NCBI GenBank assembly: GCA_944324235.1
Contig: CALUVN010000015.1
Coordinates: 1 to 42,175 of the forward strand
DNA: 42,175 nt
Direction of reading: 5' to 3'
From: Candidatus Gastranaerophilales bacterium
GTDB taxonomy: Bacteria; Cyanobacteriota; Vampirovibrionia; Gastranaerophilales; Gastranaerophilaceae
How positions within the stretch are numbered: position 1 is the stretch's first letter; each line of letters opens with the position of its first letter. The notes under the pieces are model-generated. The model was not told the DNA's origin. It searched no databases and saw nothing but the letters and a program-made list of their open reading frames with translations. The position numbers and the translations under genes are program-made. Positions 5,117 to 27,398 of the stretch are shown in pieces.

Positions 5117-6670
5117 TTATTTACTGTTTTTCAAATCTTCTAACGTTAATTCAAAATCTTCAGTAGAATACTCTAAATCCGCTAAATCGGATTTTTCAAA
5201 CGTACCGTTATCCATTTTTTCATAAATTCCGTATGCTTCATACATTTTATCTCTTGCGTTATCGACTATTGCATTAATATCTGCACCTGTACAGGATAAC
5301 TTATAAAGCTTTTCAGCAAATTCTTCTCTGTTGAAATTTTCATTTACATTTTTATCTTTTAAATAATGATTTAATATATCAAGACAACCTTTTTCGTCAG
5401 GCTTTTTAATTTCAATAAGATTACCGAGACGCCCGCTTCTTTTAATAGCACGGTCAATCATATCAGGACGATTTGTTGTCGCAATAATTGTAACCCTTTC
5501 ATTTTGTTTTTCCAAGCCGTCAATAAGAGTTAAAAGCTGTGCAACAACTCCGTTTTTACCTACATAATTCGAACCTTCTCTTCGTTGCGGAACAATTGCA
5601 TCAAGCTCATCTATAAATAAAATTGCAGGCTGTTTGTCAACAAGTTCTTTAAAAGTATATCGCCACAACTTTTCAGTTTCACCGAAACTTGAACGTTCAA
5701 ATTCTTGTGAATCAATTTTTACAAAATGTATATCTTGATTCCGGCGTTTTTTTGCCTCACCGATTATAGCAAGAGCTAAAAGAGTTTTCCCTGTTCCGGG
5801 TTCTCCAAAAAATATAGTCCCTTTATTTGACGATTTTGGAAATGCTTCAGGATACAAAAGAGGGAATAAAATTTTCTTTTTAACCAGTTCTATAGTATCA
5901 TCCATACCTGCAATATCATCAAATGTCCGCTCCGGAATATCTAACTTGTTCTGTTTATTCACTTTTGGGGTACAAATATTTGAACAAGGACGTGCTTTTG
6001 AAACGTAATCAAACTTAAGTTCGGGTGAATCCGTATAAAAATTGTCGACAGGAATTTTAGCATCATAAAAAATATTGTTTGACTCTTTGCCGGTTTTTAT
6101 AAATTTAATTTTAACCTTATTGTTTGTTTCTATAAAATCATCATATACGGCAGTATTTTCGTATGTTGTATAATCTTTTTGGGAATCTGCAAGATTACGT
6201 GCCAGCCCGTGTAATTTAAAAGAATTTTTTTTACAACTGTCTTTTGTAATTATCAAAGGATCTGTCATATCTTCCTTCAGTATATATACATCTTTTATGT
6301 TTTTAGGGTTATCAATATTAGAGCTTTCTTCAGTTAATGAGCGTTTAACAAAATTTTTGAAAAATAAACTTTCAGGATTTCCGATAACAATTGCGGAATT
6401 TGAATTGAGCCTGTGAAGAACATCCGCAAGTTTAAGAGACAGCATAACATCATGGGCATTTAATTTTGATAATTCTTTTGTTTCGATATTTTCAGAAACA
6501 GAATCATTCTCGGGAGCTTTATCTTCTTTAATAAATTCATCCTGAGCATGCGTTTTTTTCCTTCCGAACCAGCCGTCAAAAGATACATAAGACGGATAAT
6601 TTTCTAATGAAGAATTATACTTCCTGAGATTTGAAATATTATAAGCAGTATTAATAGGATAAACTTTCAT
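5117..6670 (-). CDS. AAA+ ATPase, Cdc48/FtsH-like single AAA domain
   Basis: The C-terminal half (about residues 245-480) is an intact AAA domain: Walker A GEPGTGKT at 289-296, Walker B ILFIDE at 350-355, sensor-1 IATTNR with Asn 400, and the arginine-finger region RAIKRSGR at 407-414. The DDIAGMDD entry motif and the RPDMIDRA sequence resemble Cdc48/p97-type unfoldases. The first 240 residues match no domain I know and probably select substrates. The N-terminus contains YPSYVSFDG (residues 25-33), related to a short tag seen in several other proteins of this window. There is no peptidase domain, so it would remodel or unfold targets, possibly with a partner protease. Confidence 0.85.
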   Translation of the reverse strand: MKVYPINTAYNISNLRKYNSSLENYPSYVSFDGWFGRKKTHAQDEFIKEDKAPENDSVSENIETKELSKLNAHDVMLSLKLADVLHRLNSNSAIVIGNPESLFFKNFVKRSLTEESSNIDNPKNIKDVYILKEDMTDPLIITKDSCKKNSFKLHGLARNLADSQKDYTTYENTAVYDDFIETNNKVKIKFIKTGKESNNIFYDAKIPVDNFYTDSPELKFDYVSKARPCSNICTPKVNKQNKLDIPERTFDDIAGMDDTIELVKKKILFPLLYPEAFPKSSNKGTIFFGEPGTGKTLLALAIIGEAKKRRNQDIHFVKIDSQEFERSSFGETEKLWRYTFKELVDKQPAILFIDELDAIVPQRREGSNYVGKNGVVAQLLTLIDGLEKQNERVTIIATTNRPDMIDRAIKRSGRLGNLIEIKKPDEKGCLDILNHYLKDKNVNENFNREEFAEKLYKLSCTGADINAIVDNARDKMYEAYGIYEKMDNGTFEKSDLADLEYSTEDFELTLEDLKNSK

Positions 6671-20422: not shown

Positions 20423-20896
20423 ATGAATGATATAACATTTACAGGCATACACGGCTTAAAGACATCCAGAATTAAAAATCATGAGAATCCCAACAACCCT
20501 ATATTAAGGATTTCTGCCAGATTATCTAATGATGCGGATGGCAATGATTTATCAGATTACTTCAATTACTTAAAAAAATCACGAAAAGAATATCGGGATT
20601 ATTGTAAAAATTTTGATGATCCGACAGCAATAGAGTTGGATTGTTTAACGATTACAGAAAAAGGTTTTGGTAAAAGAAATGCATTTAAACTTAATCATAT
20701 TCCTATTATTTTTGACAGGGATGAAGCTATTCCAATATTTGAGTTTCTTGCACGATTTACCAAAAGGGCTGCAGAATGTACAGAATCTATGCCTCAAAAA
20801 GATTTTATAAACAAAATAAATGATGCAATAACAGAAGCTGCAGCAAAATATTTTGAAGTTCCGCTGAAATATTTATTTAGAGATAATCATAAATGA
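20423..20896 (+). CDS. Hypothetical protein with N-terminal F-x-G tag
   Basis: A 157-residue protein I do not recognise. It starts MNDITFTGIHGLKTSRI, a form of the short N-terminal tag found in other proteins of this window. It has no signal peptide or membrane helix and is charged, with helical segments (AIPIFEFLARFTKRAAECTE, NKINDAITEAAAKYF). No clear ribosome site precedes the ATG. The 3' end overlaps the oppositely oriented phosphodiester glycosidase gene by 24 bases. The overlap and weak start leave some doubt, but the long frame and tag support a real gene. Confidence 0.6.
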   Translation: MNDITFTGIHGLKTSRIKNHENPNNPILRISARLSNDADGNDLSDYFNYLKKSRKEYRDYCKNFDDPTAIELDCLTITEKGFGKRNAFKLNHIPIIFDRDEAIPIFEFLARFTKRAAECTESMPQKDFINKINDAITEAAAKYFEVPLKYLFRDNHK

Positions 20897-24847: not shown

Positions 24848-25012
24848 AACCTTTTCCCGTCCTTTCTATATGTTTAATTATAGTAGAAAAATAAATAAGG
24901 TAAAGTTTTATCTTTTTTACTACAATATTAATATTTGTAAATATTTTACTATTAACCATAAAAAAATATTATTTTTAGACGTATTATGTAGAAAAAGTTA
25001 AGGAGTAGAAAT

Positions 25013-26269
25013 ATGAGAATCAATTCAATCAACGCAGCACAAAGTAGTATTTACAACAACAAAAACTCAAAGCAGATAAAAAATCATCAACAACCGACGT
25101 TCGGATACTTTGGAAATCCTAATATTGGAGGCTCGGGAAATTGGCAAGGTCCAACCGAATTTGATGAAGCTGTAGGAGAGTTTTTAGGTAAAACTTTTCT
25201 GGTTATAACCGCACCTGTTTGGGGGCCTTTTTATGGCGGGTATAAACTTTACGAAAAACAAAGAGCAAAAAACGAGGCACGTATAGAAAAACTTGCATCA
25301 GAAAAAGCAAACCAAATGTTCAAAGCTGAAGAGAACCGTCAAAAAACTCCTGAGGAATTATTAGCTAATTTCATTGGTGCAAGCATAATATCTGACCCAA
25401 ATAAAGGATTAAATAAAGTTATGGGCAATGGTGACTTGAAACTTGATGTTCATACTGAAATCCTATCTCCAATGGTTGCTGTAATGAAAGGTGACAAAGA
25501 TTTAGTAAATACAAATTCGTTGCCAAATGGATTTATTCTTTTTGGACCTAAAGGAACAGGTAAGACTTACTTTATGGAATCTTTAGGTGAACAGGCACAA
25601 GAATTAGGTATGGATTTCGTTGTACCTGAAATTGACACACTTGAGCCTTTGCAAACAGCAAAAAATATTAGAGATGCATTCAAATCGGCAGAACGAAATT
25701 TTAAAGATACAGGTAAATATACTTTGATATTTATGGACGAAATGGATGCTTATACTACTGATAGACGCTTATCTCTTGATAATTTAAAAGAAGTTGCGGC
25801 TTTACTAAAGTTAACAGAAAATTCATCACAAAGAGGTGTAATTTGGTTAGGTGCAACAAATAATATTAAAGTTATGGATAGAGCACTGTTGGATAGAGCT
25901 TCAATGATAAGACCAATACCTATTATGCAAAATTACGAATTATTTGATACTTTAGCTTATCACTTGATAAAAGAAAAAGGACTTAATGATGCTAGTAATA
26001 TTGATTATGAAAAAATTAAAAACAAACTAGAATCTACAACTTTAAAATATTCTCCTAGAGATATGGAAAATATAGCAAAACAAGCTGTTAAGTTTTATAA
26101 AATAAATAATAACAATATTACTGCTGATGATATAATAGATATAATGAGTAAACGCATACCACCTAAAACAAATGAACGCGCATTAAATGAATACAACAAT
26201 GATATTGTATATGCCAAATCAGAAGGTTATATATGTGAAGATGACCCAATAGCCCAAAATGAAGAATAA
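25013..26269 (+). CDS. AAA+ ATPase with N-terminal tag, catalytically intact member of a pair
   Basis: A 418-residue protein. The N-terminus MRINSINAAQ...QQPTFGYFG carries the tag (Phe 30). A hydrophobic segment at about 61-80 (TFLVITAPVWGPFYGGYKLY) may associate with the membrane. The AAA core has Walker A GPKGTGKT (178-185), Walker B LIFMDE (238-243), sensor-1 GATNN (280-284) and a putative arginine finger in LLDRAS (Arg 295), then a helical lid. All residues needed for ATP hydrolysis are present. I cannot name a closer subfamily. A strong AAGGAG lies before the ATG. The next gene, 10 bases on, is a degenerate paralogue, so they probably form a mixed complex. Confidence 0.85.
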   Translation: MRINSINAAQSSIYNNKNSKQIKNHQQPTFGYFGNPNIGGSGNWQGPTEFDEAVGEFLGKTFLVITAPVWGPFYGGYKLYEKQRAKNEARIEKLASEKANQMFKAEENRQKTPEELLANFIGASIISDPNKGLNKVMGNGDLKLDVHTEILSPMVAVMKGDKDLVNTNSLPNGFILFGPKGTGKTYFMESLGEQAQELGMDFVVPEIDTLEPLQTAKNIRDAFKSAERNFKDTGKYTLIFMDEMDAYTTDRRLSLDNLKEVAALLKLTENSSQRGVIWLGATNNIKVMDRALLDRASMIRPIPIMQNYELFDTLAYHLIKEKGLNDASNIDYEKIKNKLESTTLKYSPRDMENIAKQAVKFYKINNNNITADDIIDIMSKRIPPKTNERALNEYNNDIVYAKSEGYICEDDPIAQNEE

Positions 26270-26279
26270 GGAATAAAAT

Positions 26280-27398
26280 ATGCAAATAAATAAAGTTCAA
26301 TTTGAATCTATACAACCAACATTTAAACAAAATACTACAATTAAAACACCAAATGAATCGAAAGAAAAATTTTTAACACAACAACGTATAAAGCTTATCG
26401 GCTATGGATTATGCGGGGTATTAATTGCGGGTGCCGGAATTATGACCGGTCGCGCTGTGTTTAAAAATATAAACTTAAGAAAAACTCAAAAAGTTTACCG
26501 TGAACTTTTTAATCAGGTTTCTTTAAATAATACTGATACAGGGCTTAACAGAGTTATTGGGCATAAAGAATTAAAAGAAGACATTGTAAATAACTTTTTT
26601 ATGCCTTTAGGCGATGTGATTATCAGAAAAGATAATGAACTTGCTCAAAAAAATGCATTACCAAATGGGCTTGTTTTATCAGGAAATTCTGGTACGGGTA
26701 AAAAATATATTATGAATGCAATCGGTGAACACGCAGAAAAGCTCGGTATGAAATTTGTAAAGCCTGAAATTGTTGAAGGCGACAGCATTGCTACTGCTCA
26801 AAACATTCGTGATGCTTTTAAACAGGCTGAAACGGATTTTAGAGAAACAGGCAATTATACTTTTATATTAATGGACAAAATGAATAATTATGCAGTTGAC
26901 AGAAGAACTACTTTGGACAATCTAAAGGAAGTTTCTGCGCTGTTAAAATTCACAGAAAATTCGTCCAAACGCGGGGCTATATGGCTCGGGATTGCTGACG
27001 ATATAAAAACTATTGATAAAGCGTTGCTCGATAGAGCTACCATGATAAGTCCGCTCAGACCAATGAATAACATGGAGTTATGCGATACGCTTGAATATAC
27101 TTTATCTAAAGAAAAGGATTTGAATTCCGGCACAATTGATTATAAAAAAATACTTGCGAAACTGAATGAAACAAAGGAACGCTATTCTCCAAAACAAATG
27201 GCGCAAGTCGCTCAGGATGCTATTGCACAAAGTAAACAAACAAAAGAACAGCTAACAACTGAAAGTCTTCTTGCTATATTGGAAAAACAGACTGCTAAAA
27301 ATATAGACGACGGTGCTGTAAAACAATTTAATGAAGATTTGGCGTATCTGCGCAGTGAAGGTTTTATTCCTCCAAAATCTCCTGATTTTGAATTGTAA
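26280..27398 (+). CDS. Degenerate AAA+ paralogue (predicted pseudo-ATPase)
   Basis: A 372-residue paralogue of the preceding protein. The two align across the core: Walker A region, [21 protein letters not shown]. It also starts with the tag (IQPTF, Phe 15) and has a hydrophobic helix at about 39-58. Catalytic positions are altered: Walker A is GNSGTGKK with Thr replaced by Lys 142, Walker B is FILMDK with the Glu replaced by Lys 200, and sensor-1 is GIADD in place of GATNN. It may bind but should not hydrolyse ATP, suggesting a structural or regulatory partner of the active copy. The frame is intact with no stop, so it is not a decayed gene. Confidence 0.85.
   Translation: MQINKVQFESIQPTFKQNTTIKTPNESKEKFLTQQRIKLIGYGLCGVLIAGAGIMTGRAVFKNINLRKTQKVYRELFNQVSLNNTDTGLNRVIGHKELKEDIVNNFFMPLGDVIIRKDNELAQKNALPNGLVLSGNSGTGKKYIMNAIGEHAEKLGMKFVKPEIVEGDSIATAQNIRDAFKQAETDFRETGNYTFILMDKMNNYAVDRRTTLDNLKEVSALLKFTENSSKRGAIWLGIADDIKTIDKALLDRATMISPLRPMNNMELCDTLEYTLSKEKDLNSGTIDYKKILAKLNETKERYSPKQMAQVAQDAIAQSKQTKEQLTTESLLAILEKQTAKNIDDGAVKQFNEDLAYLRSEGFIPPKSPDFEL

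Follow-up and report, generated by a model that had tools for sequence, protein, structure and literature searches.

In a gut bacterium of the Gastranaerophilales, a relative of the cyanobacteria, two tandem genes encode an AAA ATPase with an intact nucleotide pocket (P1) and a close paralogue whose pocket has degenerated (P2), and the best explanation for P2 is that it was kept as a non-hydrolysing partner. With about even confidence, P1 and P2 are proposed to be subunits of a heteromeric, probably membrane-associated AAA assembly in which P2 would be a pseudo-ATPase giving structure and an arginine finger to P1. The window analysed is the whole stretch of 42,175 nucleotides from contig CALUVN010000015.1, and all features of the pair given below lie on its plus strand. 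Relatives of the two genes are labelled here as A (a P-loop AAA gene) and B (a neighbouring degenerate AAA gene), labels defined in this analysis. The lineage-wide set of such P-loop-plus-degenerate AAA pairs is a stronger finding than P1/P2 alone.

P1 (25013..26269) is a protein of 418 aa and P2 (26280..27398) one of 372 aa. Ten bases separate the two open reading frames, and a Shine–Dalgarno-like stretch precedes each of them (AAGGAG and AAGGAA). The proteins share 47% identity over 288 aa (BLASTP, 5e-91), and both match the Pfam AAA domain (PF00004) above its gathering score of 21.2 bits, P1 with 66.5 bits (4.2e-18) and P2 with 38.4 bits (2.1e-9). An earlier note on this DNA had described two proteins that align across the AAA core and lie 10 bases apart, with which both the coordinates and the BLASTP alignment agree. 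Given the 47% identity, the radical changes in the pocket and a P2 frame that is open for 372 codons, chance is not an issue.

In P1, Walker A reads GPKGTGKTY (residues 178–186; 25544..25570), Walker B LIFMDEMD (238–245, with FMDEMD at 240–245; 25724..25747) and sensor 1 GATNN (280–284; 25850..25864). The P2 counterparts are degenerate: Walker A is GNSGTGKKY (135–143; 26682..26708), in which Thr is replaced by K142; Walker B is FILMDKMN (195–202, with LMDKMN at 197–202; 26862..26885), in which Glu is replaced by K200; and sensor 1 is GIADD (237–241; 26988..27002), in which Asn is replaced by D240. The sequence thus confirms the three losses listed in the earlier note (Thr to Lys in GKK, Glu to Lys in MDK, and the sensor 1 Asn in GIADD). 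The next acidic residue is also lost, N202 standing in P2 where P1 has D245. The Walker A Lys (K141), the Walker A glycines and the Walker B Asp (D199) are retained in P2.

The AlphaFold model of P1 is an AAA fold with core pLDDT mostly above 90, and its closest solved structures are Vps4, p97, spastin and other classical AAA proteins (Z about 20 for Vps4 and p97). The model of P2 (pLDDT 78.6) keeps the AAA fold which, with the 372 open codons, bears out the earlier claim that fold and frame were both preserved in the second protein. The structural matches of P2 are much like those of P1, with the heteromeric Ycf2–FtsHi motor narrowly on top. The lid domain of P2 is complete, in contrast to that of the B-types in one related genus, g41. 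The usual arginine-finger motif of AAA proteins, RxGR, is reduced to a single Arg (LLDR) in both P1 and P2. R295 of P1 (25895..25897) is the candidate arginine finger and is invariant in 27 aligned sequences; P2 retains the equivalent residue, R252 (27033..27035), in an invariant column of alignment A4 (27 related sequences), with an uncertainty of two residues in its alignment to the finger position.

Pore loop 1 (aromatic-hydrophobic-Gly) is absent from P1, from P2 and from all 27 aligned A-types, whereas CDC48/FtsH-like paralogues in the same genome do have it. Since neither protein carries this loop, threading of a peptide by P1/P2 is unlikely. Two better-known families were considered and rejected. 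An FtsH protease would not fit the lack of the HExxH of a zinc metalloprotease domain, the end of both proteins about 120 residues past the arginine finger or the score of 33 against a cut-off of 600; a CDC48/p97 unfoldase would not fit the score of 42.8 bits against a cut-off of 802.65 or the absence of pore loop 1.

A hydrophobic, probably membrane-spanning segment of 19 residues is found in P2 (37–55; 26388..26444; mean hydropathy 1.81), and the model places a helix (32–51) over it at low confidence. The corresponding claim for P1 is less secure: its hydrophobic segment (53–71; 25169..25225) is weak, with a mean hydropathy of 1.13, and its use as a membrane anchor is uncertain. The earlier note had given both proteins an N-terminal tag and a hydrophobic segment; the tag is real in both, but the segment is clear in P2 and weak in P1. 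No membrane segment is present in the A-types of genus g1. A profile hit hinted at a B-type N-terminus on an A-type core in P2, the segment being short and hydrophobic.

More remote relatives, at about 30% identity, are common in g41, a genus of the same family, and are present in several other genera. By the authors' count, about 28 of 32 related unique loci consist of an A-type beside a degenerate B-type, and such neighbours occur in seven genera (g41, g1, g30, g6, g21, g40 and g36); beside the A-type genes of g34 and g35, no AAA partner was seen. The A-types have retained a P-loop, with the consensus GxxGxGK[ST] in most cases, but Walker B is altered in almost all of them (QD, RD, ND, NN and so on), so that the full DE Walker B of P1 is an exception. 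In g41 the A-types have a shifted Walker B (FPQDLDN) and yet are conserved. Because most A-types have no standard Walker B, ATP hydrolysis across the family at large is doubtful. In the B-types the P-loop Thr is gone, as are the standard Walker B, the sensor Asn and, for the most part, the Gly pattern. The B-types keep RxGR, in which R, G and R are invariant in 12/12 rows of alignment A2 and retained in nearly all of the larger set. Only 32–50 residues follow RxGR in the g41 B-types, so most of the C-terminal lid is missing there. Pfam calls AAA in 4 of 12 B-types, and the A-type profile recognises most B-types. Among the closer g41 pairs both genes are under purifying selection (dN/dS 0.12–0.21 for A and 0.17–0.40 for B). 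An adjacency like the one that the earlier note proposed to look for recurs in distant relatives; the note's description of an intact ATPase next to a dead one fits P1/P2 but not the family.

P1/P2 agrees with the definition of these pairs, being a P-loop AAA gene that adjoins a degenerate AAA gene on the same strand. It also resembles them in the N-terminal tag, the AAA core, the lack of a pore loop and the presence of one degenerate partner. The difference is that P2 keeps an A-type core and lid and does not descend from the B group: its sister is P1 (100/100), and it has LLDR in place of RxGR. Gene order differs as well, since B comes first in g41 and the degenerate gene second in the P1/P2 window. 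No name for the Gastranaerophilales A/B pairs was found.

Several g41 A–B pairs (L015–L018, L020 and L021) adjoin a gene resembling anaerobic ribonucleotide reductase (nrdD-like; start ...ELFVIKKDGTKEKFDVQKVVNAVKKSARR). This neighbour is the same gene in most species looked at, which suggests that the g41 pairs hold a stable chromosomal place. In genome G116 (L198:1067-3616), the A-type is followed by a tandem duplication of the B-type, whose two copies are nearly identical and encode 422 aa each. A tagged, probably coiled-coil protein of about 290–350 aa lies downstream of A-type or A–B genes in several genera (L208, L209, L210, L197 and L198), and in g34 a tagged coiled-coil-like protein occupies the place of the B partner.

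In the proposed mechanism, P1 would bind and hydrolyse ATP. P2, presumably derived from a P1-like gene, would no longer hydrolyse ATP and would sit beside P1, with R252 possibly extending into the ATP site of the P1 subunit next to it. By analogy with TorsinA and its cofactors LAP1 and LULL1, such a machine would more likely be an ATP-driven conformational switch or a remodeller than a threader. We infer a physical P1–P2 complex, a mixed ring, a trans-acting Arg, membrane anchoring and a remodelling role from the tandem genes, the kept fold, a pocket that changed while R252 was kept, and the A–B pairs that recur among relatives. The recurrent live-plus-dead pairs in relatives suggest that the dead protein works as the partner of the live one. 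Evidence against this reading comes from the single Arg of P2 in LLDR, where RxGR would be usual, from the weak membrane segment of P1 and the lack of one in g1 A-types, from the non-standard Walker B of most A-types and from the g34 and g35 A-types that stand without an AAA neighbour. In addition, P1 has the same Arg (R295) and so need not depend on P2.

This last point also favours the strongest competing account, a somewhat improbable but serious one, in which P2 acts alone outside a P1 ring, whether by binding nucleotide, by serving as a scaffold or by regulating separately. The retention of K141, the Walker A glycines and D199 would suit a protein that still binds nucleotide or serves as a scaffold, as would the full lid of P2, which the g41 B-types do not have. 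Conversely, the tandem order and the recurrent A–B neighbours suggest joint action, and related AAA domains, intact and degenerate, are also found fused in one polypeptide. L187–L195, L004 and L083 encode large tagged proteins in which an ankyrin-like N-terminus is combined with two to four AAA domains; the first of these domains is often degenerate and the later ones look intact.

A further competing account takes P2 for a functionless, decaying duplicate of P1. Maximum-likelihood phylogeny joins P1 and P2 as sisters (support 100/100). A and B types fall largely into separate groups that each span several genera, the deeper B branches being only moderately supported. P2 therefore does not belong to the B lineage; a P1-like gene gave rise to it and its catalysis was lost separately, which makes it a second origin of the same arrangement. 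Decay might be expected of a gene that is known from a single genome, has lost its catalytic residues and lies in an accessory insert that is absent from three congeners. However, the P2 frame is open at a dS of about 2.1 in the core shared with P1 (interval 1.3 to saturation), and the core dN is 0.47. Without constraint on P2, its dN alone would come near half of dS (about 1), and since the total core dN lies below this, decay is unlikely. The whole-pair dN/dS is 0.22–0.29, a value that describes the pair as a whole because each gene is represented by one sequence. In 200 simulations at 0.9 substitutions per site, a neutral frame of the length of P2 acquired a mean of about 22 stops and never fewer than 12, whereas P2 is open. 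The tree branches leading to P1 (0.43) and P2 (0.52) differ little in length, R252 is retained, and degenerate partners recur in relatives under constraint. A decaying duplicate is therefore improbable. The suggestion of the earlier note that selection kept P2 gains indirect support from the open frame, the dN/dS and a P2 branch that is hardly longer, and the dN/dS comparison it had called for speaks against simple decay.

The genomic setting of P1/P2 is that of an accessory insert (24893..27398, no strand assigned; start approximate) between trpS on the minus strand and an oppA-like gene on the plus strand. In three congeners (G001, G002 and G003), trpS adjoins oppA and no more than a short intergenic stretch separates them, from which it follows that P1/P2 is an insert of about 2.5 kb. 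GC3 is 0.21 and 0.25 in the pair and 0.34–0.37 in the flanking genes. Searches of the genus, of viral contigs and of samples drawn from the family, order and class gave no orthologue of P1 or P2, and within the searched samples the two genes are known from one genome only. A scan of named genomes with P1 alone as query gave no match; with an alignment, it gave one close relative (Candidatus Gastranaerophilales record L087) and then generic AAA genes only. A mobile-element origin was considered and rejected, since neither terminal inverted repeats nor a target-site duplication showed up convincingly in a repeat scan and viral contigs gave no match. Promoter and terminator motifs at the locus were found at counts at or below chance, and no literature on these AAA proteins was found.

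An accessory insert of low GC might also hold a defence or conflict module, for instance with P1 as an IetA-like anti-phage ATPase, and P1 does match IetA profiles at 3e-15. We consider this unlikely, because the match covers the general AAA core, no IetS subtilase gene is adjacent (the neighbours are trpS and an oligopeptide-binding protein gene), viral contigs gave no match, and related g41 pairs have one and the same nrdD-like gene as their neighbour in most of the species examined. Membership of the IetAS system was rejected on the IetA equivalog score (NCBIfam, 43.5 bits against a cut-off of 510) and on the lack of a neighbouring IetS, and other known defence systems were likewise rejected. 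Least probable is an active P2 that works by an unusual mechanism or with its altered residues compensated: the conserved g41 A-types with a shifted Walker B (FPQDLDN) indicate that the family may tolerate unusual chemistry, but in P2 the Thr, the Glu and the sensor Asn are all changed, so that two lysines have entered the pocket, and the following acidic residue is gone too (N202 against D245 in P1).

A non-hydrolysing P2 kept as the partner of P1 would have precedents. Inactive sites are a familiar feature of heteromeric AAA rings, and the live-plus-dead AAA arrangement is already known elsewhere. Pex1/Pex6 and other AAA heterohexamers, ORC and the clamp loaders combine live and dead ATP sites in one assembly, as P1/P2 is proposed to do, but they belong to other subfamilies and have double rings or DNA-loading functions, and Pex1/Pex6 have pore loops. 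The Ycf2–FtsHi motor of chloroplasts, among the top structural matches of P2, is likewise a heteromeric membrane AAA assembly with inactive members, but it is derived from FtsH and has a role in chloroplast protein import; because many AAA proteins match P2 with nearly equal scores, no special kinship is shown. The earlier note knew of no described system of this form, a statement that does not hold, since TorsinA with LAP1 and LULL1 matches it (PMC4999309, PMC5425593). LAP1 and LULL1 are degenerate, membrane-anchored AAA-like cofactors without Walker motifs that give TorsinA its arginine finger (PMC4999309, PMC5425593), and torsins have no pore-loop motif (PMC4999309). P1/P2 shares with them the combination of a P-loop AAA protein without pore loops, no pore-loop consensus being present in either P1 or P2, and a degenerate AAA-like partner; the g41 B-types are similar also in having no more than a remnant of the C-terminal lid. 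The differences are that P1/P2 belongs to the classical clade (Vps4/p97-like) and torsins are Clp/HSP100-like, that P2, closely paralogous to P1, keeps its lid, and that the A-types keep an Arg of their own. Membership of the torsin family was rejected, the Pfam and PDB sequence matches being to classical AAA proteins with no Torsin family among the matches listed. The resemblance is an analogy, one of anatomy and not of kinship.

More tentatively, the Gastranaerophilales may have evolved, at least twice, a two-part AAA machine that works in the manner of TorsinA–LAP1/LULL1, a non-threading, membrane-linked ATPase switched by a degenerate neighbour that donates an arginine finger, with P1/P2 as the second, independent evolution of a degenerate partner. 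If this is true, pseudo-ATPase AAA partners, which are best known from eukaryotes, arose repeatedly in one bacterial lineage. There would then be dozens of natural pairs in which the catalytic site was lost to different degrees, and with them one could ask what an AAA subunit has to keep once catalysis is lost. The findings would also draw attention to the tagged proteins of a common group of gut bacteria, a large set that is so far unstudied.

The tag that marks these proteins is PTFG in P1 (28–31; 25094..25105), with F and G at least 90% conserved in the A-type alignment, and PTFK in P2 (13–16; 26316..26327). It follows the pattern [VILPN][ST]F[KGRQT][GASN] near the N-terminus (for example PTFG, PTFK or SFKG). 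In Gastranaerophilales genomes it is carried by many otherwise unrelated proteins, a few percent of the total, including HTH-repeat, HNH and kinase-like proteins. In this genome, on which the pattern was chosen, the tag occurs in 12/339 sampled genes and in 7/1286 internal windows (p 7e-5). Two other genomes provide an independent test, also on gene samples, and there the figures are 6/224 and 6/809 (p 0.03), although two of the six tagged proteins resemble ordinary secretion-signal proteins. No enrichment was found in other phyla and no paper on the N-terminal tag was found. Elsewhere in the window, tagged genes lie at 20423-20896 on the plus strand and at 5117-6670 on the minus strand; the latter encodes a tagged AAA protein whose core is CDC48-like and in which Walker B and sensor 1 are both intact.
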